A stretch of DNA of 64,000 nucleotides from the NCBI GenBank assembly GCA_028819475.1, contig JAPPLJ010000036.1:62001-126000 (forward strand), in the 5' to 3' direction. The notes below the pieces were generated by a model. It ran no database searches and was not told where the DNA came from. It saw nothing but the letters and a program-made list of their open reading frames with translations. The translations under genes and the position numbers were made by a program. Below are positions 7,282-60,994 of this stretch, piece by piece. Within the stretch, counting starts at the first letter, position 1. Every line of letters begins with the position of its first letter. The DNA comes from Rhodospirillaceae bacterium. GTDB lineage: Bacteria > Pseudomonadota > Alphaproteobacteria > Bin65.

Positions 7282-8058
7282 TCAGTCCAACGGAGCGGTC
7301 CAGTCGCCCAGCACGGCCTGCCAGCACGCCAGCGCCGCAATCGCGGCGGTATCGGCGCGGAGCAGGCGCCCGCCGAGCCCGACCGGCGTGACATTGGGGA
7401 AACGGCGCAGAAGGTCAAGCTCCTCCGGCGCATAGCCGCCCTCCGGCCCGACGAAGACGGCCCAAGGCCGGCCGCGTGTATCGCCGCGCCGGCGCAGCGT
7501 GTCGACGATCGGGATGCCGGTCTGCGTCTCGTCGAGCAGCAGGATCTGGCGATCGGCCGGCCATCCGGTCATCAGGGCATCCAGCTTCACGGCCGGAAAC
7601 ACGGCCGGGACGGTGAGCCGCGCGCATTGCTCGGCGGCTTCGACGGCGTTGGCACGGAGCCGCGCCTCGTTGACCCGCGCGACTTGCGTATGGCGGGTGA
7701 GGACCGGCTGGAGGGCGGAAACCCCGAGCTCCGACGCCTTCTGGGCGACGAAATCGATCCGCGCCTTCTTGACCGGGGCGAAGCACAGCCAGAGGTCGGG
7801 CTCCGGTTGCTGGCGGCGGGTCTGCACGGTGACCGCCAGCGCGGCGCCCCTTCTGCCGAGCGCTTCGACGGTCGCCAGCCATTCGCCGTCGCGGCCGTTG
7901 AACAGCCTGACCGCGGCGCCGGCCGGCGTGCGCATCACGTTTCTCAGATAGTGGTGCTGCTCTGCGCTCGGCGCGACGGTTGCGCCGGCCGCCAGCGGCG
8001 CCTCGACATAAAGGCGGATGGCGGGGCTGCCGGGCGCTTCGGTCTCCGGCGCCGTCAT
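7282..8058 (-). CDS. rsmE: 16S rRNA (uracil-1498 N3)-methyltransferase
   Basis: This is a 258-residue SPOUT-class methyltransferase that modifies U1498 of 16S rRNA. An N-terminal PUA-like part (QHHYLRNVMRTPAGAAVRLFNG at about 28-49) is followed by the knotted catalytic domain, with VKKARIDFVAQKASELGV, FVGPEGGYAPEELDLL and the terminal LGGRLLRADTAAIAAL motif. The start ATG at 8058 overlaps the stop of the preceding dehydratase gene (ATGA), and longer readings only shadow that gene. It lies between the dehydratase and gshA. Confidence 0.95.
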   Translation of the reverse strand: MTAPETEAPGSPAIRLYVEAPLAAGATVAPSAEQHHYLRNVMRTPAGAAVRLFNGRDGEWLATVEALGRRGAALAVTVQTRRQQPEPDLWLCFAPVKKARIDFVAQKASELGVSALQPVLTRHTQVARVNEARLRANAVEAAEQCARLTVPAVFPAVKLDALMTGWPADRQILLLDETQTGIPIVDTLRRRGDTRGRPWAVFVGPEGGYAPEELDLLRRFPNVTPVGLGGRLLRADTAAIAALACWQAVLGDWTAPLD

Positions 8059-9083
8059 GCCGCGGCGTCCAGGCGCGTCTGCGCGGCGGCGAGATGGCCG
8101 GCGAACCCGGCCGGGTCGATATTGGCCCCGCAGACGATCAGGCCGACCGCCTTGCCGCGCAGCCGCTCGTGCAACGGCCCGGCCAGCGCCGCGAGGGCTG
8201 CCGCGCCGGCCGGTTCGACCGCCAGCTTGAGCCGGCTGAATGTGGTCAGCATGGCGTCCTGCAAGACGTCGTCGGACACCGTGACGATCTCTTCGACCAG
8301 TTGCCGGACGATGCCGAATGAGTAGGGCAGGTGGAGCGGTGCGCCCAGGCTGTCGGCGATGGTCGATACGGCGACGCTGTCGAGCGGCGCGCCCCGGGCG
8401 AGGCTGTCGCGCATGCCGCAGGCGCCGTCCGGCTCGACGCCGTAGATCGCCGCCGTCGAACCGGCGAGGCGGAAGCCGGTCGCCACGCCGGCGATCAGGC
8501 CGCCGCCGCCGACCGGCACGATCACGGCGTCCAGGTCCGGCGCCTGACGGGCGAATTCCAGGCCAAGCGTCGCCGTCCCCGAGATCGTGTCCGGCCCTTC
8601 GAAGGGATGGATGACGGCGCGGCCCTCCTCGTCGCGGATGCGCGCCATCTCGGCGAAGGCGGCGCGGATATCGTCGGCCAGCACCACTCCGGCGCCCAGT
8701 TCCCGGCATTGGGCGATGCGGAACGGGTTGGCCGCCCTGTGCATGACGACCTTCGCATCGACGCCGAGCGACCGGCCGGCATAGGCGACCGCGATGGCGT
8801 GGTTGCCGGCGCTGACCGCGGTGACGCCGGCCGCGCGCCGTGCCGCGTCGAGGGCCAGGATGTTGGCCAGCGCGCCACGCGGCTTGAAGCTGCCGGTCCG
8901 TTGCAGCAACTCCAGTTTCAGGATTGCCCGCGTGCCGGCGCCGAGCAGGGCATCCTTCGCGACACCCGACCATTCCAGCACCGGCGTTTCGACGACCCAC
9001 GGCGCGATGGCGGCGCGCGTCGCCTCGATCCGGTCGAGGGTCAGCGCCCGCCCGGATGACGCATCGTTCGGCGCGTCATTCAT
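8055..9083 (-). CDS. PLP-dependent threonine/serine dehydratase-like protein
   Basis: This is a 342-residue fold-type II PLP enzyme. The Schiff-base lysine lies in GSFKPRGA (Lys about 67). The phosphate-binding loop is [11 protein letters not shown] in the middle, and [10 protein letters not shown] is present as in threonine dehydratases. It lacks the C-terminal regulatory ACT domain of biosynthetic IlvA, so a catabolic threonine/serine dehydratase or racemase-like role is more likely. It overlaps both neighbours by 4 bases (ubiD upstream, rsmE downstream), so all are probably translated from one message. Exact substrate is unknown. Confidence 0.88.
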
Positions 9084-10552
9084 CGGTCCTGGGCATCGAT
9101 CTTGCGGCCCCATTCGCGGGCGGTTTCGCCGGGCCACTTGTTGGTGGCGTCGAGGCCGGCCTTCGAGCCGAGGCCGCTCACCGGGCTGGCGAAATCGAGA
9201 TAGTCGATCGGCGTATTCTCGATCGTCACCGTATCGCGCGCCGGGTCCATGCGGGTCGAAATCGCCCACATGACGTCCTTCCAGTCGCGGCAGTCGATAT
9301 CGTCGTCCACGACGATGACCCACTTCGTGTACATGAACTGGCGCAGGTAGCTCCACACGCCCATCATGATGCGCTTCGCGTGGCCGGCGTAGGCCTTGCG
9401 GATCGAGACCACGGCAATGCGGTAGGAGCAGCCCTCCGGCGGCAGCCAGAAATCGACGATCTCCGGGAACTGCTGTTGCAGCAGGGGGATGAACACTTCG
9501 TTCAGCGCCTCGCCGAGAACCGACGGCTCGTCGGGCGGCCGGCCGGTGAAGGTCGAGAGGTAGATCGGCTCCCGGCGCATGGTGATTGCGCTGACCCGGA
9601 ACACCGGGAAGCGCTCGACGCTGTTGTAATAGCCGGTATGGTCGCCGAAGGGGCCTTCGTCGCCCTCCTCGTCGGCCATGACCCGGCCTTCGATGACGAT
9701 CTCGGCCTGGGCCGGCACCTTGAGCGGCACGGTGCGGCAGTCGGCGAGCTCGACCTTCTTCTCCCGCAGCAGGCCGGCGAACTGGTATTCCGAGAGCGTA
9801 TCCGGCACCGGCGTCACCGCGGCGATCATGGTCGCGGGATCGGCGCCGATCACGGCGGCGGCCGGGAAACCTTTGCGCCGTTCTTCGGGCGAGGCCTGGG
9901 CCTTCCAGCGCGCGAATTGCTGGGCGCCGCCGCGATGGTGCAGCCAGCGCATCAGCGTCGTGTCCCGGCCCGTCACCTGCATCCGGTAGATGCCGAGGTT
10001 GAAGCCGTCGGTGCGTTCGGTCTCCGGCGCCGGGCCGCGGGTGACGACAAGCGGCCAGGTGATGAGCGGCGCCGGCTCGCCCGGCCAGCAGGTCTGGACC
10101 GGCAGGCGGCCGAGATCGACGGCGTCGCCGTCGAGCACGACCTCCTGGCAGGGCGCGCTGCGCACGGTCTTGGGCTTCATCGCCAGCACCTTGCGCGCCA
10201 GCGGGATCAGCTCCAGCGCCTCGCGGAAGCCGCCGGGCGGTTCGGGCTGGCGCAGGAAGGCGAGCATCTCGCCGACTTCGCGCAACTGTTCCGGCGTCCG
10301 GCCGATCGCCTGCGCAACCCGCTCGACGGTGCCGAACAGGTTGACCAGCACCGGCATGTCCCATGCGCGGTCGCCGTCCTGCGGTTGCTCGAACAGGATC
10401 GCCGGCCCGCCTTCCAGCAGCGCCGCCCGGTGGATGCGCGTCATCTCCAGCGCCGGCGAAACCGGTCCGGCCTCGCGGCGCAGCTGGCCGTCGCGCTCCA
10501 GCTGCGCGAGAAAATCGCGCAGGGAGGCATAGGGCGTGCCGCCGGCGCTCAT
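9080..10552 (-). CDS. ubiD: UbiD-family prenylated-FMN decarboxylase
   Basis: This is a 490-residue protein of the UbiD family (non-oxidative decarboxylases using prenylated FMN), classically 4-hydroxy-3-polyprenylbenzoate decarboxylase of ubiquinone synthesis. Seen are [19 protein letters not shown] and HRGGAQQF (prFMN/metal site region), [13 protein letters not shown] near the centre with its catalytic acidic residue, and a C-terminal [20 protein letters not shown] segment typical of the group. No ubiX is present nearby. It is first of a four-gene run (ubiD, dehydratase, rsmE, gshA). The long forms fused to the dehydratase are a frame artefact: the two genes overlap by only 4 bases. Confidence 0.92.
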
Positions 10553-43162: not shown

Positions 43163-44053
43163 ATGACCCGCACCCGTATCGCCCTGATCGCGTTTCTGGT
43201 CATCATCGGCGTGCTCGGCTATTCGGCCGTGTACACGGTTCACGAGCGCGACCAGGTGCTCGTGCTGCAGTTCGGCAAGGTCGTGCGCCAGGACAGCGAT
43301 CCCGGTCTGCACTTCAAGCTGCCGTTCATCCAGAACATCCGCTATTTCGACCGGCGCGTTCTCGACCTCGACGTGGCGCCGGCGGAAATGCCGACCACCG
43401 ACCAGAAACAGACGGTTGTCGACACCATCGCCCGCTACCGGATCAAGAATCCGCTGAAATTCTTCCAGGCGGCGAGGGCCGTGGAGGTTTTCGAGCAGCA
43501 GCTCGGCGACATCGTGAGCTCGACGACGCGGGCGGTGTTTGCCCGTGTCCCGCTGGCGGAACTGCTGACGGCAAAGCGCGCCGACATCATGCGCGACATC
43601 GCCGACCGCGTGAGCGCCGCCGTGGAAGACCGCTATGGCGTCGACCTGATCGACGTCCGGGTCAAACGGCTCGACCTGCCGCCGCAGAACAGCGAACGGA
43701 TCCTGCAGCGGATGGAATCCCAGCGGCGCCAGGAAGCGACCGGCATCCGGGCCAACGGCGAGCGCGAATCGGCCCGCATCAGGGCGGATGCCGACCGCGA
43801 TTCGCGGATCACCGTCGCCAAGGCCGAGCGCCGGTCCCAGGAACTGCGCGGCGAGGGCGAGGGCAGGGCGCAGGAGATCTACAACAAGGCCTATGGCCGG
43901 GACGGCGGGTTCTTCGAGTTCTGGATCTCCATGAACGCGCTGCGCGATTCGCTCGGCGCGGAAAACACGCGCTATATCGGCCCGGCCGCAGGGGAGTTCT
44001 TCAAGTTTTTCGGCGACATGGACGGCAAGAAGGCCGGAGGCGAGAAGAAATAG
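43163..44053 (+). CDS. hflC: HflC, subunit of the HflKC regulator of FtsH protease
   Basis: This 296-residue protein has one N-terminal span (about 6-24) followed by the SPFH domain (VYTVHERDQVLVLQFGKVV) and a charged coiled-coil region ending around FFEFWISMNALRDSL, a conserved HflC element. It pairs with HflK, encoded 1 base upstream. Length fits the family (about 290-330). Confidence 0.95.
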   Translation: MTRTRIALIAFLVIIGVLGYSAVYTVHERDQVLVLQFGKVVRQDSDPGLHFKLPFIQNIRYFDRRVLDLDVAPAEMPTTDQKQTVVDTIARYRIKNPLKFFQAARAVEVFEQQLGDIVSSTTRAVFARVPLAELLTAKRADIMRDIADRVSAAVEDRYGVDLIDVRVKRLDLPPQNSERILQRMESQRRQEATGIRANGERESARIRADADRDSRITVAKAERRSQELRGEGEGRAQEIYNKAYGRDGGFFEFWISMNALRDSLGAENTRYIGPAAGEFFKFFGDMDGKKAGGEKK

Positions 44054-48364: not shown

Positions 48365-50152
48365 CTAAGCGGACCGGGCGCCGGCCGCGAGCATCTCGAT
48401 CATCTTGTCGCGCATGACAAATTTTTGCGGCTTGCCGGTCACGGTCATCGGCAATTCGTCGACGAAGCGGACGTAGCGCGGAATCTTGTAGTGAGCGATC
48501 TGGCCGCGGCAGAAGTCGCGGATCGACTCCTCGGTCTCCGCCGCGCCCGGCTGCAGTACGATCCAGGCGCAGACCTCCTCGCCATAGCGCTCGTCCGGTA
48601 CGCCGAAGACCTGGACGTCCTGAACGTTGTCATGGCGCAGCAGGAATTCCTCGACCTCGCGCGGATAGACGTTCTCGCCGCCGCGGATCAGCATGTCCTT
48701 GACCCGGCCGACGATCTCGCAATAGCCCTCGGCGTCGATGGTCGCCAGGTCGCCGGTGTGCATCCAGCCTTCGGCGTCGACCGCCTCGCGCGTGCGCTCC
48801 AGGTCGCCCCAGTAGCCGCGCATCACCAGGTAGCCGCGGGTGCACAGTTCGCCCCGTTCGCCGACCGGCAGCGTCCGTCCGTCATCGGGATCGACGATCT
48901 TGCATTCGGCGTGCGGCTGGATGCGGCCGACCGTCGAGACGCGCTTCTCGATCGGGTCGTCGGTCGCGCTCTGGAACGAGACCGGGCTGGTTTCGGTCAT
49001 GCCGTAGGCGATGGTCACGTCCGACATGTTCATGTCGCCGATCACCTGCTTCATGGTCTCGATCGGGCAGGGCGCGCCCGCCATGATGCCGGTGCGCAGG
49101 GCCGAGAGGTCCGCTTTCGCGAAATCGGGATGGGACAACATGGCGATGAACATGGTCGGCACGCCGTAGAGGGCCGTGCATTTCTCGTCGTTCAGCGCCT
49201 TCAGCGTGTCGCCGGGCTCGAAGCCTTCGCCGGGGAAGGTCATGGCGGCGCCCTTGGTGACGCAGCCCAGCGTGCCCATGACCATGCCGAAGCAGTGGTA
49301 GAGTGGCACCGGGATGCACAGCCGGTCGGCCGCGGTGAAGCGCATCGCGTCGGTGGTGAAGCGGGCGTTGTTGACGATGTTGCGGTGGGTCAGCGTGGCG
49401 CCCTTGGGTGCGCCGGTGGTGCCGCTGGTGAACTGGATGTTGATCGGGTCGCCGGGCTCCAGCGTCGCGCCGATATCGTCGACCATCTTCAGGGCCGCCG
49501 GCCCGGCCATGCCGGCAACGTCGCCGAAATTGACCATGCCGGGGGATTTGGCGTCGCCCATGCGGATGACGGTGCGCAGCTGGGGCAGCTTTGCCGATTG
49601 CAGCCTGCCGGGCTCGGCGTCCGCCAACTCCGGCCCCAGCGATTGCAGCATTTCCAGGTAACGGCTGGTCTTGAAGGACTCGGCCAGGATCACCCCTTTG
49701 CAGCCGACCTTGTTGAGGGCGTATTCCAGCTCCGCCAGCCGGTAGGCCGGATTGATGTTGACCATCACCGCGCCGATCTCTGCGGTCGCAAACTGGGTCA
49801 GCACCCATTCCGGCCGGTTCGGCGCCCAGATGCCGATCCGGTCGCCCTTGCCGAAGCCGAGCGCCACCAGGCCGGCGGCGAAGCGGCGCGCCTCTTCCTT
49901 CAGTTCGCGCCAGGTCCAGCGCAGGCCGCTGTCGCAGAACACCGCGGCCAGGGCCTCGGGATAAGCGGCCGCCGTATCGGCGAGCAGCGCGCCGATGGTT
50001 TTTTCCAGCAGCGCGGGCGCCTTCGCGCCGATAACGTGGGAGAGGCCATCGCGCGGCCCCTGGTCGTGCGGGGCGTCCGCTCCGCCGGCTTCGGAGGCCT
50101 TGTCCAGCGACGTAATCGGCTTGGCGAGATCTACGGTCCAGTCGGTGCTCAT
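48365..50152 (-). CDS. Acyl-CoA ligase (AMP-dependent synthetase)
   Basis: This 595-residue ANL-superfamily enzyme activates a carboxylic acid with ATP and CoA. The AMP-binding loop [19 protein letters not shown] is near residue 228, YGMTETSP near 362, the hinge [16 protein letters not shown] near 471, and the C-terminal catalytic lysine in TVTGKPQKF. The overall type is fatty-acyl or medium-chain acyl-CoA synthetase. It is the last gene of the amide-transport operon, 30 bases after the ATPase-amidase fusion. It could convert the acid released by the amidase into its CoA ester; this is inference. Confidence 0.93.
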
Positions 50153-50182: not shown

Positions 50183-52668
50183 CTACAGGGTCCGCCAGTC
50201 TTCGTCCTGTTCGAAGGCGTGCGCCGCCCGGTAGATCGCCGATTCGTCGTAATGCTTCCCGGTCAGCATCAGGCCGACGGGAAGGCCGTCGCTCAGGCCG
50301 CAGGGTATGCTCATCGACGGATGCCCGGTAATGTCGAACGGCGCGGTGTTCGGAATCATCTCGAACGCCCGCTGAATATACAGCGAGAGCGGCGCATCGG
50401 GGCCGGGAATCGGCGGCGCGACCATCGGCAGGGTCGGCATCAACAGCAGGTCGTAGCGGCCGAGCACGTCGTCGTAGGCGGCGGTCAGCTGACGCGCCAG
50501 GTTCTGCGACTTGGCGAAATAATGCCCGCGATGATGCTTCAGCATGTATTCGCCGATCATCATGGTGATCTTGAGGCTGTGGGACAGCTCGTCGGCCCGC
50601 GCGCGCCAGTTGGCGTGGGCGTCGAGCAGGCTGGTGACGTAGAGGCCCTTCCAGCTCGTGCCGAAGCCGTTGCCCTTCATCATCGTATTGGTCGCGCCCT
50701 CCAGCGCGACCGGCGTCCAGATCGCCAGGCCGTCGCTGTGCATCGAGATCGAGACGTCCTCGACGGTCGCGCCCATGGCGCGGAACCGCTCGGCCGCCGC
50801 GCGCACCTTGGCGTCGACGCCGGGCTCGCTGTTGTCCAGGCCGAAGCCTTCCTGGACGACGCCGATGCGCATGCCGCCGGCGCCCCGGCCGATTGCTTTC
50901 GTATAGTCATCCACCCGCGGCTTGTACTGGCGCGGGTCCAGCCCGTCCGCGCCGGCGATCACTTCGAGCAGCAGGGCGTTGTCCGCAACATTGCCGGTCA
51001 TCGGGCCGGTATGGTCGATGGTCGGCTCGATCGGCATGACGCCGGTGTAGGGCACGAGGCCGTGGGTCGGCTTCATGCCGTAGCAGCCGCTGAACGACGC
51101 CGGAATCCGGATCGAGCCGCCCTGGTCGCCGCCGATCGCCATGTCAACCTCGCCGGCGCCGACCAGCGCGCCGGAGCCAGACGACGAGCCGCCGGCCGTG
51201 TGGCCGATCTTCCAGGGATTGTGCACCGGCGCAGAGGCGTTGGTGTGGCTGCCGCCGGACAGGCAAAAATATTCGCAATGGGCCTTGCCGGCGATGGTGG
51301 CGCCTTCGTCGAGCATCCGCGTGACGATGGTGGCGTCGAGGTCCGGCGTATAGCCTTCCAGCGTCGAGGCGCCGTTCATCATCGGCACGCCGGCGAGGCA
51401 GACATTGTCTTTCAGCGCCACCGTCTTGCCGTCCAGCCTGCCGCCCGGCGCGCCGCGGATCTCGCATTTGATGTACCAGGCGTTCATTGGGTTTTCGCTG
51501 TCGCCGGGCCGGGTGCCAGGGGTGCGCGGATACTTGACCGTGGGCGGCGCATCGCGCAGCGCGTCGACACGGTCGTAGGCCGCCAGCGTCGGCTCCATCA
51601 GGTCGAGGAATGACTCGATTTCGCCGTCGCTCATGCTCATGCCGAAGGAGCGGACGATGTCGCGCATCTGGTCCAAGGTGGGGCGTCTGACGGTCATGGC
51701 ATTTCCGATCGGCTGGGCCGGCGGTGGAGGCGGCGTTTCGGGTGGGCGTGGCGGCGGTTTTGGAGCCGGGGTCCGGAGGTGCACCTGCGGTTGCGGCCGG
51801 GCAAGCGGGGCGGCAGCCACGCCGGCGGGGATGGCGGCAGGCGCCGGGGCCGGCGCGGCGGCGGTCCGGGCGCTCCCGCCGCCCAGGCCGGCGAATTCCT
51901 CGATCAGGCCGGTGGCGCCGAAGCTGTCGCGGGCGATCTCCGCCTTCACCGCGCCGCGTTCGAGCACGAGGATCCGGTCGGACAGTTGGGTCAGGAATTC
52001 CAGATTCTGTTCGACCAGCAGGAGGGTGAGGCCGCGGCTTTGCCGGATCGACACCAGGGTCTCCGCCATCTCCTCGATGATCGACGGCTGGATGCCCTCG
52101 GTCGGCTCGTCGAGCAGGAACAGCACCGGATCGGCGATCAGGCAGCGCGCGACCGCGAGAATCTGCTGCTCGCCGCCGCTCAGCACGCCGCCCTGGCGGT
52201 CGAGCAGCGGGGCAAGGCGCGGAAAGTCGGCGACGATCCGGTCGATGCCGGCCTCCGCGCTGGCATCGCCGGTCTCCTCGCTCCAGGCGAAGTGCAGGTT
52301 CTCGCGCACCGTGAGATTGGGAAAGATGCCGCGGCCCTGGGGCACGTAGCCGAAGCCGAGCCGGCTGCGCCGCCAGGTCGGCAGCCGTGTGATCGGCGTC
52401 CCCTCGAAGGTGATCTGGCCGCCGGTCGCCGGCAGCAGGCCCATCAGGGTCTTGAGCAGGGTGGATTTGCCCATGCCGTTGTGGCCGAGCAGGCCGAGCA
52501 CCTCGTTCTCGGTGAGGTCCATCGAGACCCCGCGCAGCACGGGGATGTCGCCGTAACCGGCGCGCAGGCCCTGGACCGACAGGATCGCGTCGCCTCGGGC
52601 CACGGGCCCGTCCGGGCCGCTGGCCGGGCTGCCGTTCGCCGGATTCCCGTTCGTCGGGGCTTCGGCGT

Positions 52669-52672
<4 letters not shown>
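50183..52672 (-). CDS. UrtE/LivF-type ABC ATPase fused to amidase
   Basis: This is a single open frame of 829 residues. Residues about 28-262 are an ABC ATPase: Walker [10 protein letters not shown] (63-71), signature LSGGEQQ (164-170), Walker B VLFLLDEP, followed by EGIQPSII, a mark of the UrtE branch. Residues 264-325 are a linker rich in Ala and Pro (for example [17 protein letters not shown]). Residues 326-829 are an amidase of the nitrile-hydratase-linked type: KTVALKDNV with Lys421, [14 protein letters not shown] near 494-507, and [11 protein letters not shown] with nucleophile Ser520. The internal ATG at 51697 could also yield free amidase. There is no stop or frameshift between the parts. 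Its start overlaps the LivM-LivG stop by 4 bases. Confidence 0.9.
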
Positions 52673-54528
<1,856 letters not shown>

Positions 54529-54540
54529 GGCCGGGCGCCC

Positions 54541-55410
54541 TTACAGCCGGTTGCGGAAGAAGCGGCCGGAAATGCCGGTCGGCAGCAGCCGCAGCAGGAT
54601 AACGGCGGCGACCAGAAGGCCGATCTCGCCGATCACGGAATTCGTCACGAAGGTGACGAGCTGCGAGACGATGCCGAAGAAGCCGGAACTGGCGATCAGG
54701 CCGGAGACGACCGACGCGCCGCCGGAGATCACCGTGATGAACGCCTTGGCGATGTAGAGCAATCCGGCGGTCGGGCCGATGCCGACCAGGGGCGCCAGCA
54801 CGCCGCCGGCCAGCCCGGTGAGCGCCGAGCCGGCCGCAAAGGTCACCATGTAGACCTTTGAGGTGTTGTAGCCGAAGGCGGTGGCCATATCGGCGTTTTG
54901 CATGGCGCCGCGGGCGATCAGGCCGGCGCGGGTATATTTCAGCACGCCGTAGACCAGCAGCACGACGCCGACGGCGCTGGCGATGATGAAGATCGTATAG
55001 CCGCTGAGCGAGTAGTCGCCGACCGCGAAGCCGCCGATCGGCGCCTTGATGCTGGTCGTGGTCGGCCCGAAGATCAGCGTGAAGGCGCCGATCATGGCCA
55101 GGCTCAGGCCCCAGGTCGCCAGCATGGTGTTGATCAGCCGGCCGTAGAGGAAGCGGATGATCAGCCGTTCGGCAACGATGCCGAACGCCGCCACGACCAG
55201 CGGGGCGATCACCAGCATCGAGACGAAGATATCGATGCCCAGCGTGTTGTGGGAGACGATCGCGGCGTAGCCGCCGAGCAGAACGAATTCGCCGTGGGCG
55301 AGGTTGATGACGCGCATCATCCCGAACACGACCGCGAGTCCGGCGCTGATGAGCGCCAGAAACGCGATCGTGTACAGGACCTCGTAGACGACAACCGCCG
55401 CCAGATCCAT
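54541..55410 (-). CDS. LivH-type ABC transporter permease
   Basis: This 289-residue polytopic permease is of the branched-chain amino acid/amide/urea family. The N-terminal LISAGLAVVFGMMRVINLAHGE motif and FGPTTTSIKAPIGGF loop are typical, with the conserved ARAGLIARGAMQNADMATAFGYN cytoplasmic coupling segment near 190. It starts 55 bases after the binding-protein gene and precedes the LivM-LivG gene by 12 bases. Confidence 0.95.
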   Translation of the reverse strand: MDLAAVVVYEVLYTIAFLALISAGLAVVFGMMRVINLAHGEFVLLGGYAAIVSHNTLGIDIFVSMLVIAPLVVAAFGIVAERLIIRFLYGRLINTMLATWGLSLAMIGAFTLIFGPTTTSIKAPIGGFAVGDYSLSGYTIFIIASAVGVVLLVYGVLKYTRAGLIARGAMQNADMATAFGYNTSKVYMVTFAAGSALTGLAGGVLAPLVGIGPTAGLLYIAKAFITVISGGASVVSGLIASSGFFGIVSQLVTFVTNSVIGEIGLLVAAVILLRLLPTGISGRFFRNRL

Positions 55411-55465: not shown

Positions 55466-56686
55466 TCAGATCTTGATCTCGTACTGCTTGGTATCGTTCG
55501 GGTTCTTCTCCAGGTCGCAGACCCGCTGCGTGTCCGACGGCGGGATCTGGCTGTAGCTCTTGAGAATTGTCAGCGTCTGATTCTTGACCTCGATCAGATG
55601 CATGTCGTGGGTGACATGATGCGTCTTCGGGTCGATCGTCACCTTGCCGGTCGGGCCGGTGTAGCTGATGCCGCTTTCCAGCGCCTCGATCACCTTCATC
55701 CGGTCGAGCGTACCGGCCTTCTTGACTCCCTCGGCCCACAGCCGGACGCCGTCGTAGCTCGACGCCGCGATCTCGTGGATATCGTTCGTGTGGCCGAACT
55801 TCCTTTTCCACGCGGCCAGGAACTGCCGGTTAGACGGGAAATCGGCCTGGGGCGAGAAGCTCTGGCACACGACGATGCCGTCGCCTTCGCTGGGCGTCAG
55901 GATCTTGTGCTCGTTGCCCGACGACATGGTTGTCGTCGCGATCGGGATCTTCTTCTTCATGCCGGCTGCCGCCCACTGGCGGTAGAAGGACAGGTGCGCC
56001 AGGCCGACCAGCACGGCGCAGACCATATCCGGCTTGGCCTTCTGGATCTTGGCGATGGTCGAGCCGAAATCCGACACGTTGAGCGGGAAGTAATCGGCCT
56101 GGATGACCTCGCCGCCGGCCTGCTGGGCGTAGTACTTGATCCAGTTCGATGTGATCTGGCCGTAGTTGTAGTCGGCCGCCAGCACATAGATCTTCTTGCC
56201 CCAGCGCTTGATCGCTTCCGGCACCAGGATGGCGGACTGCTGGGCCGGCGTTGTGCCGACGCAGAACACGTTGCGGTCGCAGACGCCGCCTTCATAGGTC
56301 GTGTTGTAGAAATACAGCGTCTTGGCCTTGCGCAGGCTCGGCCGGATGGCCTCGCGCGACGCCGAGAGGATGCCGCCGTGAATCACGTCGACCTTGTCCT
56401 TGCGCGTCATGCGGCGGGCATACTGGGTGTAGAGCGCCATCTTTGACTGGGTGTCGTAGGGGATCATCTCGATCTTCTTGCCGAGCAAGCCGCCCGCGGC
56501 GTTGATCTCGTCGATCGCCAGCCGGTGCGCCTTTTCCATCGGCTTGCCGTAGGCCTCGAAGATGCCCGACGTGTCCAGGATACTGCCGAACTTGATGGTG
56601 TCGGCGCCCATCGCGACCGACGGCACCGTCGCCAATGCGCCGGCCGCGGTCGCCCCCTGCACGAACTGTCTGCGGTTGATCGTCAT
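55466..56686 (-). CDS. Tat-exported amide/urea-type ABC binding protein
   Basis: This 406-residue binding protein has a Tat signal (NRRQFVQGATAAGALATV near 4-21). The mature protein fits the UrtA/FmdD/AmiC group: TIKFGSILDTSGIFEAYGKP, LAIDEINAAGGLLGKKIEM, a VIHGGILSASREAIRP loop, and GTTPAQQSAILV. Members bind urea or short-chain amides. The amidase fused to the transporter's ATPase supports an amide as ligand. AGGGAG lies before the ATG, 33 bases after the flotillin stop, so it is likely co-transcribed with it. Confidence 0.9.
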   Translation of the reverse strand: MTINRRQFVQGATAAGALATVPSVAMGADTIKFGSILDTSGIFEAYGKPMEKAHRLAIDEINAAGGLLGKKIEMIPYDTQSKMALYTQYARRMTRKDKVDVIHGGILSASREAIRPSLRKAKTLYFYNTTYEGGVCDRNVFCVGTTPAQQSAILVPEAIKRWGKKIYVLAADYNYGQITSNWIKYYAQQAGGEVIQADYFPLNVSDFGSTIAKIQKAKPDMVCAVLVGLAHLSFYRQWAAAGMKKKIPIATTTMSSGNEHKILTPSEGDGIVVCQSFSPQADFPSNRQFLAAWKRKFGHTNDIHEIAASSYDGVRLWAEGVKKAGTLDRMKVIEALESGISYTGPTGKVTIDPKTHHVTHDMHLIEVKNQTLTILKSYSQIPPSDTQRVCDLEKNPNDTKQYEIKI

Positions 56687-56719
56687 GATGCTACTCCCTC
56701 TGGATTGAATTCCTGCCGG

Positions 56720-58330
56720 CTAGCGGTCTCCGCCGGTCTTGTCCTCGTCCGTGTCGTTGTCGGCCGATTCGCCGTCTGAAGCGTCGGCGTCGCCGCCGAC
56801 ATCGAGATTCACGCCGAGCTGCCGGCCGAGCTTCTGCATGGCCGGCAGCTGCACCGCCATGTTCAGGACGCCCTCGACGGCCTGGTTGAATGGCGAAGTT
56901 GCGCCGCCGCTTTCTCCGCCCGATCCGCCGGTTCCGAGCCCGCTCACCTGGTTGATGCGGATCGACTCGATCTTCTCGGCCGGTTTGACCATCTGTTCGA
57001 TGATCGCCGGCATCCGGTCGATCCGGTGCTGCTCCAGCCGCGTATTCAGCACCTGCTCGCTCACCGCATTCTCGGCCTCGGCAAGCGCCGCCTTGCCTTC
57101 GGCCTCGGCCTTCAACTCGTGGCGCCGGGCCTCGGCCTTGACGGAGGTCGCCTTGGCTTCGGCCTGTACCTTGTCGAGCAGGGTCCTGACCTCGGATTTG
57201 GTGACCTCTTCGGAAACGTCGGCGTCGCGCCTGGCGCGCAGGAGTGCGGTCGTCGCGTCGCGTTCCGCCGCCAGCTTCTCCTTCTCGCGCTGCAATTGCT
57301 CCTGCGCCGCGACGACGCCGATACGGCGCAGTTCGGTCTCGGCCTCGGCGTCGAACTCCTCGGCGCGCTTGCGGCTGAGCGCGATCTGGCTGTCGATCTT
57401 GGTCGATTCGGCGGCCAGCAGGGCCTGGGATTCCTCCTGGCGCAGGGCGAGGTCGCGCTGGATTTCCGCAAGGCGGGTCTGCCGTTCGGCGTCGATCCGG
57501 GCGCGCTCGGCCTCTTGCTTCGCGTGCTGGCGCGCAGCTTCCTCGGCGGCGTCGCCGGCCGCGCGGGCTTCCTCGACCGTCCGGTGCTGGGCGATCTCCG
57601 CTTCCTGCTGCTCGCGCTCGATCTCCAGCTTCCGCTTCAGCGAATCGAGCTGGGTCTGGCGCACCGAGACGTCGGCGTCGGCCTCGATATCCGCCCGCTG
57701 TTTGCGGTTGGCGGCGACGATCTCGGCCAGGCGGCGCATGCCGACGGCGTTGAAGGCGTTGTTCTCGTCGAGCGACGCCAGCGACGCCTGGTCGAAGCGG
57801 GTGAGCGACGCCGATTCGAGGCGCAGGCCGTTCTGCTCGAGATTGTCGACCAGCAGGGCTTCGACTTCGCTGACGAAGGCGCCGCGGTTCTCGTGCAGCT
57901 GGTCCATGGTCTTGGTCGCGACGACCGCCTGCATGGCGCCGACCAGCCGGCCGTCCAGCAATTCGTGCAGACCGTCGGTCCTCAGCGAGCGCGAGCCGAT
58001 GGCCTGGGCTGCGGTCGCCACGCCCTGCGGCGTCGGCAGGACGCGCAGGTTGAACTCCATCTCGACGTCGAGGCGCAGCCGGTCCTCGGTCATCAGGGAG
58101 GCGTTGCCCGTGCGCGCCACCTCGAGCGGCATGGCGCGCATGTTGATCTCTTCGACCCGGTGCAGGAAGGGCAGGGCGATGCAGCCGCCGTCCATCGCCA
58201 CCTTCTGGCCGCCGAAGCCGGTGCGGATCAGGGCGGTCTCGCGGGTGGCCTTGCGGTAGAAGCGCTGCAGGAAGGCGATGAATACCGCCAGCGCCACGAC
58301 AACGATGACAATGGTGATGAAGGTCGCCAT
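56720..58330 (-). CDS. Flotillin/SPFH membrane scaffold protein (YqiK type)
   Basis: This 536-residue protein has one N-terminal span (about 5-23) followed by an SPFH domain (IRTGFGGQKVAMDGGCIALPFLHRV) and a long coiled-coil tail (about 200-440) rich in Ala, Glu and Lys, with a glycine-rich and acidic C-terminus. Flotillins organise membrane microdomains. The usual NfeD partner is not adjacent. It is directly upstream of the amide transporter and has a good promoter, so it may organise that complex in the membrane; this is inference. The start has a modest ribosome site (GAGG). Confidence 0.92.
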   Translation of the reverse strand: MATFITIVIVVVALAVFIAFLQRFYRKATRETALIRTGFGGQKVAMDGGCIALPFLHRVEEINMRAMPLEVARTGNASLMTEDRLRLDVEMEFNLRVLPTPQGVATAAQAIGSRSLRTDGLHELLDGRLVGAMQAVVATKTMDQLHENRGAFVSEVEALLVDNLEQNGLRLESASLTRFDQASLASLDENNAFNAVGMRRLAEIVAANRKQRADIEADADVSVRQTQLDSLKRKLEIEREQQEAEIAQHRTVEEARAAGDAAEEAARQHAKQEAERARIDAERQTRLAEIQRDLALRQEESQALLAAESTKIDSQIALSRKRAEEFDAEAETELRRIGVVAAQEQLQREKEKLAAERDATTALLRARRDADVSEEVTKSEVRTLLDKVQAEAKATSVKAEARRHELKAEAEGKAALAEAENAVSEQVLNTRLEQHRIDRMPAIIEQMVKPAEKIESIRINQVSGLGTGGSGGESGGATSPFNQAVEGVLNMAVQLPAMQKLGRQLGVNLDVGGDADASDGESADNDTDEDKTGGDR

Positions 58331-58410: not shown

Positions 58411-58438
58411 GTTATCCTTGCTTTATTTTCCATGTCAA
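58411..58438 (-). promoter_or_regulatory. Sigma-70-type promoter of the flotillin/amide operon
   Basis: On the minus strand TTGACA (58433-58438) and GATAAC (58411-58416) are 16 bases apart in an AT-rich island unlike the surrounding GC-rich DNA. The inferred transcription start lies about 75 bases before the flotillin ATG, so the tandem repeat falls in the leader. Confidence 0.65.
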
Positions 58439-58476
58439 ATAAATTGTCGGGAGGCCGGTGCGCCCGAACGCGCCGG

Positions 58477-59490
58477 TCAACGGGCCAGTTGGCGGACGAT
58501 CCTGAAATCGAACCCATGCGCTTCGGCCAGATAGACGGGCAATTCTCCGGGGCCGGTTTCGCTGCGGACGCCAGCGGCGATGCGGCGGTTGCGTGTCACC
58601 TGGACGGCGAGGCGGGCCATGCCTTCGTAGATCGACTGGCCGAGATCGTTCAGCATCGGCGCCCGCTCGGCGAACATGGAATGGTAGCGCTCGCGGAACG
58701 CGCCGTTGCGCCGCGTATCGAGCGCCGCAAAATAGCCGGCGCTGACGAAAACCCCGTCGGTCGCCGCCGCGCCCATGGCCAGCAGCATGTTCTCCTCGAT
58801 GGCGCAGGAGAAGCGAAGGACCGAACGGGCCAGCCCGGCGGCGTGAAAGGCCCGGTTGAAGAGCACCGAATCCTGGCCGATCAGGGACAGCAGGACGGCA
58901 TCGGGCCGGCGGGTTTCGATCCGGTCGAGGATGGCGTCGAAGCGGCGGATGTCGGTCGCGCTCTCGTCGAAATCGACATAATCGCTTCCGACGACCTCGC
59001 AGCCCTGCCGGGCCATCGCCCGCGCCGCCAGGGTGTGGGAAACCCGCGGCCAGACATAGTCGTTGCCGACGAAATACCAGCGGCGCAGCCGGTAGCGCGC
59101 GCTCAGCCAGTTGAGCGCCGGCAGCAGTTGCCGATCCGGCGTCACCCCGAGGCAGTGGACGTTGTGCGGCGCGCTGCCTTCGTGCAGCGGCGTGTAGATG
59201 TAGGGCACGCGTCGGCCGACCGCCGCCGCCAGCGCGTCCCGCACGTCGCTGGTGTGCATGCCGACGACCGAATCGATCCGCCGGGCGGCGATCAGATCGG
59301 CGGCGCGGCGGGCGACGGCTTGCGGCTTCGACCCGGCATCGACGAAGCGCAGCCGGAACACCGTATCATCGGTCGCCGCGGCGTTGATTTCGGCGCAGGC
59401 CAGTTCGGCGCTGGCGCGGCAGGACGGGCCCCAGATGCCGGCCGGGCCGCTCGTGGGTATGAATACGCCGATCCGGTGCGTGCTCGCCAT
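58477..59490 (-). CDS. Cytoplasmic AmiC-like amide-sensing protein
   Basis: This 337-residue protein has the periplasmic-binding-protein fold but no signal peptide: the first strand begins at residue 6 (RIGVFIPTSGPAGIWGP), as in the Pseudomonas AmiC sensor. Family-like segments are VVGMHTSDVRDALAAAVGR, YIYTPLHEGSAPHNVHCLG, WYFVGNDYVWPRVSH and VFVSAGYFAALDTRRNGAF. In Pseudomonas, AmiC controls the antiterminator AmiR according to amide level. No AmiR-like gene is in the window. Its position upstream of an amide transport-amidase operon fits an amide-sensing role (inference). Confidence 0.8.
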   Translation of the reverse strand: MASTHRIGVFIPTSGPAGIWGPSCRASAELACAEINAAATDDTVFRLRFVDAGSKPQAVARRAADLIAARRIDSVVGMHTSDVRDALAAAVGRRVPYIYTPLHEGSAPHNVHCLGVTPDRQLLPALNWLSARYRLRRWYFVGNDYVWPRVSHTLAARAMARQGCEVVGSDYVDFDESATDIRRFDAILDRIETRRPDAVLLSLIGQDSVLFNRAFHAAGLARSVLRFSCAIEENMLLAMGAAATDGVFVSAGYFAALDTRRNGAFRERYHSMFAERAPMLNDLGQSIYEGMARLAVQVTRNRRIAAGVRSETGPGELPVYLAEAHGFDFRIVRQLAR

Positions 59491-59641: not shown

Positions 59642-60091
59642 ATGGCCTTCTCCGGTAGCCTGGCCGATATCCTGATGCGGGCCGGCCAGTCCGTGGCCCA
59701 GGACCTGGACGGCTTGCTCCGGCCGCTCGACCTGTCCCTCGTGCAGTGGCGGGTGCTCGACAGTCTGAGCGACGGCAAGGGCCGGACCATGAGCGGCCTG
59801 TCGGCACAGTCCGCCATCCAGATTTCGGCCCTGTCGAAACTGGTCGACCGGATGGTCGTGCGCTCGCTGGTCCTGCGCAAGCAGAGCGAGCGCGACCAGC
59901 GGGCCGTCATCGTCATGGCGTCGGATTTCGGGCTGGAGGCCTACCGCAAGAGCCTGCCGGTGATCCGGGCCTACGAGGCGCGGCTGGCACAGCGTCTGGT
60001 CGGCTTTGGTGTCCATCGCCTCGACGAATTCATGGTGGACGCGGGCGGCGACGCGCCGGCGGCCGGGGTCAACGCGATCCCGCTGAACTGA
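59642..60091 (+). CDS. MarR-family transcription regulator
   Basis: This 149-residue winged-helix protein has a MarR-type N-terminal helix (LADILMRAGQSVAQDLDGLL), then LVQWRVLDSLSDG, the recognition region IQISALSKLVDRMV, and the wing with RDQRAVIVMA. Length and charge fit HpaR-type repressors of aromatic catabolism. It is divergent from the AmiC-like gene and 120 bases upstream of the HpaH-type hydratase gene, so either could be its target. AAGGGAG before the ATG is a good ribosome site. Ligand unknown. Confidence 0.9.
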   Translation: MAFSGSLADILMRAGQSVAQDLDGLLRPLDLSLVQWRVLDSLSDGKGRTMSGLSAQSAIQISALSKLVDRMVVRSLVLRKQSERDQRAVIVMASDFGLEAYRKSLPVIRAYEARLAQRLVGFGVHRLDEFMVDAGGDAPAAGVNAIPLN

Positions 60092-60211: not shown

Positions 60212-60994
60212 ATGCTGTCGGATGCCGATCGCAACAGGGCGGCCGACCTGCTGATGCAGGCCGGGGAGACGCGCACGCCGGTGCTCCAGCTGTCCACGAC
60301 CTGGCCGGAGATCACGTTCGAGGACGCCTATGCCATCCAGGCCGAGGTGACCGCGCGCAAGGTCGCCGCCGGCGCCCGGGTGATCGGCCACAAGGTCGGC
60401 CTGACCTCGAAGGCGATGCAGCGCTCGTCGCAGATCGACGAGCCGGACTACGGACACCTTCTGGACGACATGATGATCGCCGACGGCGCGACCGTGCGCC
60501 GTGCCGATTACTGCATCCCGCGGGTCGAGCTCGAACTCGCCTTCGTCCTGGGTGCGCCGCTGGAAGGACCGGGCGTCGGCCTGCTCGACGTCCTGCGCGC
60601 GACCGAATATGTCGTGCCGTCGATCGAGATCATCGACGCCCGGGTGCAGAACCCGCGCAAGATCTTCGACACCATTGCCGACAACGGCGCCGCGGCCGGC
60701 ATCGTGCTGGGCGGCCACCCGGTCGGGCCGCACGATATCGACCTGCGCTGGGTCGGCGGCGCGATGTACCGCAACACCGATATCGAGGAGACCGGCGTCG
60801 CCATCGGCGTGCTCGGCCATCCGGCGATGGGCATCGCCTGGCTGGCGAACAAGCTGGGCGCCCATGGCGTCGGGCTGGAGCCGGGCCATATCGTGCTTTC
60901 GGGCTCGTTCGTCCGCCCGGTCTGGGCCGAGCCGGGCGATACGCTGCGCGCCGATTTCGGCGACCTCGGCGTGGTGAGCGTCGGCTTCGGATAG
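60212..60994 (+). CDS. hpaH: 2-oxo-hepta-3-ene-1,7-dioate hydratase-like enzyme
   Basis: This 260-residue protein resembles HpaH and the related 2-oxopent-4-enoate hydratases (MhpD family), which add water to a dienoate in meta-cleavage pathways. Family marks are VIGHKVGLTSKAMQRSSQ near 67-84, the metal-site glutamates in PRVELELAFVL, VPSIEIIDAR and the C-terminal FVRPVWAEPGDTLRADFG. HpaH proper acts in 4-hydroxyphenylacetate degradation; no other hpa genes are in the window. It follows a MarR gene on the same strand. Confidence 0.85.
   Translation: MLSDADRNRAADLLMQAGETRTPVLQLSTTWPEITFEDAYAIQAEVTARKVAAGARVIGHKVGLTSKAMQRSSQIDEPDYGHLLDDMMIADGATVRRADYCIPRVELELAFVLGAPLEGPGVGLLDVLRATEYVVPSIEIIDARVQNPRKIFDTIADNGAAAGIVLGGHPVGPHDIDLRWVGGAMYRNTDIEETGVAIGVLGHPAMGIAWLANKLGAHGVGLEPGHIVLSGSFVRPVWAEPGDTLRADFGDLGVVSVGFG

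Follow-up and report, generated by a model that had tools for sequence, protein, structure and literature searches.

A flotillin gene in an alphaproteobacterial genome is probably the first of the structural genes in a conserved operon for amide uptake, where its product would be a dedicated part of the transport machine, corralling a complex of importer and amidase. The gene lies at 56720-58330 of the window, by which we mean the whole 64,000-nucleotide stretch of DNA analysed. Comparison of sequences across bacterial classes strongly supports a flotillin that is a dedicated, co-regulated component of this operon. The same flotillin clade keeps the operon, mostly the operator and a fused ATPase-amidase across classes, and this strengthens the earlier supposition that the flotillin is 'dedicated'.

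A flotillin gene ahead of an amide-type transport operon

The flotillin and its adjoining genes are arranged as follows (window coordinates).

59642..60091, plus strand: divergent MarR-family regulator (MarR, 35.9 bits)
58477..59490, minus strand: AmiC-like periplasmic-binding-fold protein, no signal peptide seen (Peripla_BP_6, 190 bits)
58412..58446, minus strand: conserved promoter/operator block upstream of the flotillin, a TTGACA box within a TTTATTT..CATG..AAATAAA dyad
56720..58330, minus strand: flotillin (SPFH/Band_7 and Flot domains), 536 aa (Pfam match, orthologues in congeners)
55466..56686, minus strand: substrate-binding protein of urea/amide type with a TAT-type signal (profile matches)
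54541..55410, minus strand: UrtB-like permease (BPD_transp_2, 91 bits)
52669..54528, minus strand: UrtC-like permease and UrtD-like ATPase in a single 619-aa frame (ORF and profile matches)
50183..52672, minus strand: UrtE-like ABC ATPase-amidase fusion of 829 aa with a Pro/Ala-rich linker (domain matches)
48365..50152, minus strand: AMP-binding acyl-CoA ligase (PRK12583, 870.8 bits, cut-off 832)

The flotillin ORF is intact on the minus strand. Its matches to the C-terminal Flot family of Pfam (PF15975, 120.2 bits, cut-off 27) and to Band_7, the SPFH domain (49.6 bits, cut-off 23.6), rule out a spurious ORF at this position. Orthologues of 81-97% identity were found in all six congeners searched, and the gene order around the flotillin is the same in the six as far as their contigs extend. 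The substrate-binding protein starts at 56686, 33 nt past the flotillin stop and on the same strand, and the gap (56687-56719) reads AGAGGGAG, followed by ATG. On our reading of the sequence this gap would be too short for a terminator together with a promoter. The ORF, its domains and the gap all agree with the preliminary description, which had placed the flotillin 33 bases ahead of a transport operon.

The importer genes missed the UrtABCDE equivalog cut-offs of NCBIfam, at 361.8 bits against 494.8 for the substrate-binding protein (TIGR03669), 235.5 against 374.25 for UrtB (TIGR03622) and 249.7 against 285.8 for UrtE. The AmiC-like protein at 58477..59490 has AmiC among its PDB matches (1pea, E 1.9e-15) and is likely to be an amide sensor, judging from this similarity. 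Within 52669-54528 the UrtC- and UrtD-like parts are joined through a Gly-rich run, and they are separate, overlapping genes in the congener locus L039; the single frame is either a recent fusion or an assembly indel in the G-run. A gene for an HpaH-like 2-oxo-hept-4-ene-1,7-dioate hydratase (60212-60994; 355.2 bits, cut-off 351.5) adjoins the MarR gene and lies in the opposite orientation in congener L041. Further along the window, 43163-44053 presumably encodes an HflC-like SPFH protein, judging by its first residues, and the window may hold two SPFH families.

Conservation of the operon and of the ATPase-amidase fusion

Using the flotillin alone as query, we scanned the genome contigs of 84,980 species and obtained 423 relatives, the best 80 of which were kept. 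Among these best 80 of 423, carriers of the operon with this kind of flotillin (type I) belong to the alphaproteobacteria, Burkholderiales including Limnohabitans, Granulosicoccaceae, other gammaproteobacteria and SAR324. Cultured examples include Denitrobaculum tricleocarpae R148, Mesorhizobium zhangyense, Limnohabitans sp. and Nitratireductor alexandrii. In this same set, 71 loci extend at least 3.3 kb downstream, and 67 of them have the order flotillin, binding protein, permease, permease, which spans alpha-, beta- and gammaproteobacteria and SAR324. Both ATPases are present at 57/59 loci with at least 5.2 kb downstream, ATPase and amidase share one ORF at 55/57 loci with at least 6.7 kb, and the ligase follows at 49/55 loci with at least 8.7 kb; an AmiC-like gene lies upstream at 37 of the 66 type I loci with room for it. 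The exceptions to the gene order come from the weak end of the best 80 and are loci of the YqiJ type (L192-L194, beside an NfeD-like gene) and of type III (L190), and at L138, L171, L178 and L185 only the ligase match is missing. The comparison of neighbourhoods that had been proposed as a check thus finds a widespread pairing, and the congeners and the loci in other classes rule out that it is unique to this genome. Over all sets, YqiJ was found just upstream of none of 81 type I flotillins, a number that corresponds to about 73 distinct loci since L115-L120 are the same contigs as L036-L041, L126 the same as L089 and L178 the same as L088, to judge by their coordinates and the lengths of the contigs. 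Flotillin distances track those of UrtB, the substrate-binding protein and the amidase (r 0.74, 0.70 and 0.60 at 33 loci, with kinship uncorrected for flotillin-UrtB).

The fusion protein contains an ABC_tran domain (residues 46-191) and an Amidase domain (407-812), and the amidase part falls within the subfamily PRK07235 (808.9 bits, cut-off 545). In an alignment of 34 homologues the ATPase and amidase motifs are invariant, including K421, S496, S497 and S520, among which we take the Ser-cisSer-Lys triad to lie; the linker is rich in Pro, Ala and Ser and variable in length. AlphaFold2 predicts two folded parts, with pLDDT below 50 for linker residues 263-324. Across all sets, the amidase shares its ORF with the ABC ATPase at every one of the 68 type I loci with a visible amidase (about 62 distinct, allowing for about six repeats).

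In the reverse test, the amidase part was searched in 289 Alphaproteobacteria genomes and 15 loci were fetched, among which were all those lacking a flotillin whose open frame reached 700 aa or more. One of the 15 (L209, from G002) is a piece broken from a type I operon and holding its amidase end, and a fused amidase was found at none of the 14 flotillin-less loci. Long amidase frames had made G076, G061, G263, G077 and G043, which lack the flotillin, candidates for the fusion; once fetched, these proved not to be fusions. A true fusion occurs in nine genomes (G000, G003, G006, G302, G264, G088, G262, G242 and G081), and every one of them carries a type I flotillin. Eight loci with a separate amidase and a Urt-like operon (L199, L200 and L202-L207, roughly 15-19.5 kb each) hold no flotillin, and some of them have AmiC-like and MarR genes. 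In this sample, then, the fusion and the flotillin accompany each other. Both may have arisen in a single ancestral event, since the amidase tree has 2 changes with 1 forced, and the correlation may accordingly rest on a single origin.

A conserved operator ahead of the flotillin

A 38-nt block ahead of the flotillin is identical in six of the seven genomes of the genus, with one substitution in L041, and sits in an intergenic region that is otherwise poorly conserved within the genus. It occurs once in the genome, even with up to 3 mismatches allowed. The flotillin had been credited with the best promoter in the area, a claim not borne out by a consensus promoter scan of 50-64 kb, which returned no promoter-like site. 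The site TTGACA-16 nt-GATAAC was missed because the scan demanded the final T of the -10 box, which it lacks; the site is contained in the conserved block.

Outside the genus, a related palindrome (TTTCCnnGGAAA or TTGAnnTGGAAA-like) was found within 200 nt upstream of the flotillin at 42 of 66 type I loci, often repeated at a spacing of about 21 or 30 nt. Dinucleotide shuffles gave a mean of 0.73, a comparison that is optimistic because the pattern was chosen after inspecting the same sequences; the control sets, which are free of matches, are fairer. No copy of the palindrome was found ahead of 62 YqiJ-type flotillins, 31 type II flotillins or 66 type I binding-protein genes. Since it lies upstream of the flotillin (42/66) and never of the binding protein (0/66), transcription probably starts ahead of the flotillin. 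Where a MarR relative lies within 3.5 kb upstream, the palindrome was present at 41 of 42 type I loci; where there is none, it was present at 4 of 21 (the 66 and the 63 loci of these counts each include up to two repeats). We propose from this co-occurrence that the MarR protein at 59642..60091 is the reader of the operator, and the location of the operator together with the MarR co-occurrence points to the flotillin as the head of a regulated transcript. The operator accompanies 31 of 33 loci with an AmiC-like gene as against only 11 of 33 without, so that regulation is not uniform across type I.

Flotillins beside ABC importers and flotillins beside NfeD

The same genome holds five PF15975 flotillins, each beside ABC importer genes of a different kind.

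Type I: amide-type operon, at the 56720-58330 locus
Type II: Liv-type operon with an ATPase fused to UPF0261
Type IV: divergent Liv-type operon
Type V: ribose-type permease cluster and a rhodopsin, FArhodopsin-like
Type VI: PotA-type ATPase about 55 nt downstream

Four of these flotillins have a PF02653 permease at a distance of at most 6.2 kb, and the zones that close to such a permease make up 8.4% of the genome (binomial P about 2e-4, with paralogues treated as independent). This test, together with the YqiJ-type flotillins described below, none of which has a permease nearby, rules out a chance neighbourhood in a permease-rich genome. The surveys across class and phylum make this case far more strongly. 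A search of the genome for YqiJ with a single distant query gave no match, and one stand-alone NfeD is encoded elsewhere in it. The label 'YqiJ-like' for the gene ahead of the type V flotillin was rejected, this gene being the rhodopsin.

Several features of the other types were observed along the way. UPF0261 is in the same ORF as an ABC ATPase at 31/31 type II loci (L049:10964-13225, L047, L043 and 28 others); most of these have a PEP-hydrolase-like gene, and SRPBCC genes follow the flotillin. A type III LivF-like ATPase (L042:12179-13384) carries about 165 extra C-terminal residues with no Pfam match and may represent a third kind of ATPase fusion among flotillin operons. The cluster of rhodopsin, flotillin and ribose-type permease (L051:6947-7636 and 7709-9745; L230; L259; L090) is not confined to the small-genome lineage (L090, L091): it also occurs in the genome under study and in two more families of alphaproteobacteria whose genomes are larger.

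PF15975 was also searched in genomes sampled evenly from the class (289) and from the phylum (397), and neighbourhoods were classified with purpose-built profiles; hits below the PF15975 cut-off were not counted. A gene for YqiJ, which is NfeD-like, lies directly upstream of 59 of the 101 flotillins outside the genus, often with PspA, and the preliminary description was correct for the majority in giving nfeD as the usual partner of flotillin genes. A Liv/Rbs-type permease within 7 kb was found for 0 of these 59 and for 37 of the 42 non-YqiJ flotillins (6 of type I, 25 of type II, 2 of type III and 4 of type V), counts that are not independent draws because each type is largely one clade. Five flotillins are left. 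L068, whose contig ends after two ABC ATPases, is not ABC by our rule and is typed III in the tree only; L065 is cut off by a contig end, L265 is a fragment, and L258 has a same-strand Liv operon with its permeases just beyond 7 kb. L220, the fifth, and L258 sit on long branches, and within 7 kb of either there is no YqiJ and no ABC permease.

The class survey accounts for all 45 over-cut-off flotillins outside the genus (21 YqiJ, 22 ABC by rule, L068 and L065). The phylum survey covers 56 of 57 further ones (38 YqiJ, 15 ABC and 3 neither, namely L220, L258 and L265), leaving out one at a contig end (G431); outside the class it contained no ABC-linked flotillin among 11 (10 YqiJ and L220). Type VI loci are scored 'none' because the C-terminal part of their flotillin falls below threshold.

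In a FastTree phylogeny of 122 flotillins, type I forms one clade of 22 rows (support 100). Types I, III and V each occupy one side of a branch (support 99-100), and II and V join (support 99). The YqiJ/ABC context label needs at least 3 changes on this tree. Provided that the tree and the direction of change are right, ABC importers seem to have gained flotillins on roughly three occasions or more. Judged from these neighbourhoods, the ABC-linked flotillins are a general alternative to the NfeD-linked ones.

Predicted structure of the flotillin

An AlphaFold2 model of moderate confidence (pLDDT 72.7, pTM 0.35) consists of an N-terminal helix (2-24), the SPFH domain and a 209-residue helix (212-420). 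The N-terminus is hydrophobic in sequence, and the model thus has the predicted N-terminal helix and long coiled coil of a flotillin. Among the best PDB matches listed for the monomer model are SPFH proteins, cage-forming ones included, namely prohibitin, flotillin, HflK/C and stomatin (Z about 13-16.5), followed by vault; the long SPFH alignments have a very high rmsd. The sequence profile of the flotillin matches only chains of human flotillin-1 (E 2e-9). Flotillin cages described by Fu and MacKinnon have a 32-nm wide end and a height of 22 nm (PMC11260169), dimensions that would leave room for an importer.

Proposed role of the flotillin

The SPFH fold and precedents in the literature make a role as scaffold plausible, and the protein would probably form an SPFH dome or scaffold around the importer. 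The most likely mechanism would be the corralling of the importer-amidase complex. With an amide as inducer, the MarR operator and the AmiC-like sensor would switch the operon on. By homology, the binding protein would pass the amide to the UrtB- and UrtC-like permeases. One of the two ATPases carries the amidase on a flexible linker, such that the amide may be hydrolysed at the point of entry by channelling. The flotillin, oligomerised as an SPFH ring or dome as its predicted fold suggests, would hold importer and amidase in one membrane patch; the CoA ligase, again by homology, would activate the released acid. In this arrangement the ABC importer would replace the usual NfeD-type partner of the flotillin.

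Such a scheme has to be weighed against a flotillin that is co-induced with the importer and makes no contact with it. Amides or their products (fatty acids, ammonia) might disturb the membrane, and the flotillin might tune its fluidity or rescue unfolded membrane proteins. Gram-positive flotillins are described as affecting fluidity and stabilising unfolded proteins (PMC7360373, PMC11222466), co-regulation alone would account for the operator, and the ligase is of the fatty-acid type. We nevertheless regard membrane protection as unlikely, because the eight unfused importer-amidase loci do without a flotillin although their substrates are probably similar, and because of the changes between YqiJ and ABC context that the flotillin tree requires. 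A flotillin that helps the permeases and the 829-aa fusion protein to fold or insert, as a quality-control or assembly factor, would explain why flotillins accompany fused ATPases (type I 68/68, type II 31/31 loci), and a bacterial flotillin that stabilises proteins has been published (PMC11222466). This seems quite improbable to us, as no protease or chaperone gene was seen in the conserved operon when the loci were read gene by gene.

It could also be argued that the operon moves between species as a block, the flotillin having no special tie to the transporter. The operon does occur in scattered lineages, and the flotillin and amidase trees group some gamma- with alphaproteobacterial loci, as block transfer predicts. 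Against such a historical linkage, the gene order is kept at 41-50% flotillin identity, YqiJ and ABC importer contexts are nearly exclusive (0/59 against 37/42), and the context label changes at least three times on the tree; we consider it very improbable. The corralling of an importer-amidase complex by the flotillin is the reading we prefer. The finding as a whole carries more weight than the preliminary description had supposed. The fused amidase, the operator, the MarR gene and the alternation of ABC and NfeD contexts are additions to the preliminary description.

The finding suggests that bacteria assemble a compact workstation in the membrane, centred on a single transporter. A bolder and more speculative idea, which we put forward tentatively and would not expect to hold in full, is that such operons encode membrane nano-compartments in which a flotillin dome encloses one ABC importer with the catabolic enzyme on its motor subunit and the nutrient is converted within a protected space ahead of its release to the cytosol, and that these evolved independently, for different cargos, in several flotillin lineages (amidase-fused type I, UPF0261-fused type II and rhodopsin-linked type V). 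Most bacterial flotillins have no known specific cargo. For those studied here the genome itself points to a candidate, since each flotillin lineage goes with one kind of transporter. It also ties flotillins to ABC ATPases that are joined to enzymes, and such fusions suggest that substrates are channelled at the membrane. The type I operon is a small, testable system with natural flotillin-less controls.

Comparison with known systems

SPFH2 operons with NfeD2 were described by Hinderhofer in 2009, where NfeD-less SPFH2 genes (17 genomes) were attributed to the partner having been lost; the text uses neither the word 'transporter' nor the word 'permease' (PMC2636767). The flotillin studied here shares the SPFH and Flot domains with the NfeD-paired proteins of YuaF-YuaG and YqiJ-YqiK, but unlike the NfeD2-SPFH2 operon the type I loci have no adjoining YqiJ or NfeD2 gene (0/81 just upstream). 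The ABC context offers an alternative to partner loss for such NfeD-less flotillins.

In open-access titles and abstracts we recognised no description of the ATPase-amidase fusion and, for flotillin genes in ABC importer operons, none beyond the related FArhodopsin cluster. Haro-Moreno (2023) suggested that flotillin might be critical for the genes of this cluster, many of them membrane transporters, and the paper mentions an inner membrane translocator, possible urea-degradation genes and a dimethylformamidase (PMC10308929). Both systems cluster a flotillin with a membrane partner, and at type V loci the rhodopsin is accompanied by an RbsC-type permease. Type I loci differ in having no rhodopsin, a Urt-like importer with an ATPase-amidase fusion, and a flotillin of a separate clade; the gene before the flotillin in the window encodes a binding-fold protein and not a rhodopsin.

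FloA of S. aureus is a general flotillin and is not known to be encoded with the heme importer. It binds the heme permease IsdF and is required for heme use, according to Adolf 2023 (PMC10147376). The likeness lies in a membrane importer that depends on a flotillin there, while here the flotillin is encoded within the operon. A 2025 preprint reports stomatin domes that enclose aquaporin-1 (AQP1) and the urea transporter UT-B (PMC12407830). There an SPFH ring surrounds a solute transporter, although stomatin is eukaryotic and not a flotillin; here such an enclosure is proposed.

FmdDEF, like UrtABCDE, is an ABC importer of the urea/short-chain-amide kind. With these importers and the ami operon the type I operon shares its types of component and the AmiC-like sensor. 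It differs from them in scoring below the Urt equivalog cut-offs, in the fusion of the amidase to the ATPase and in the flotillin ahead of the binding protein.
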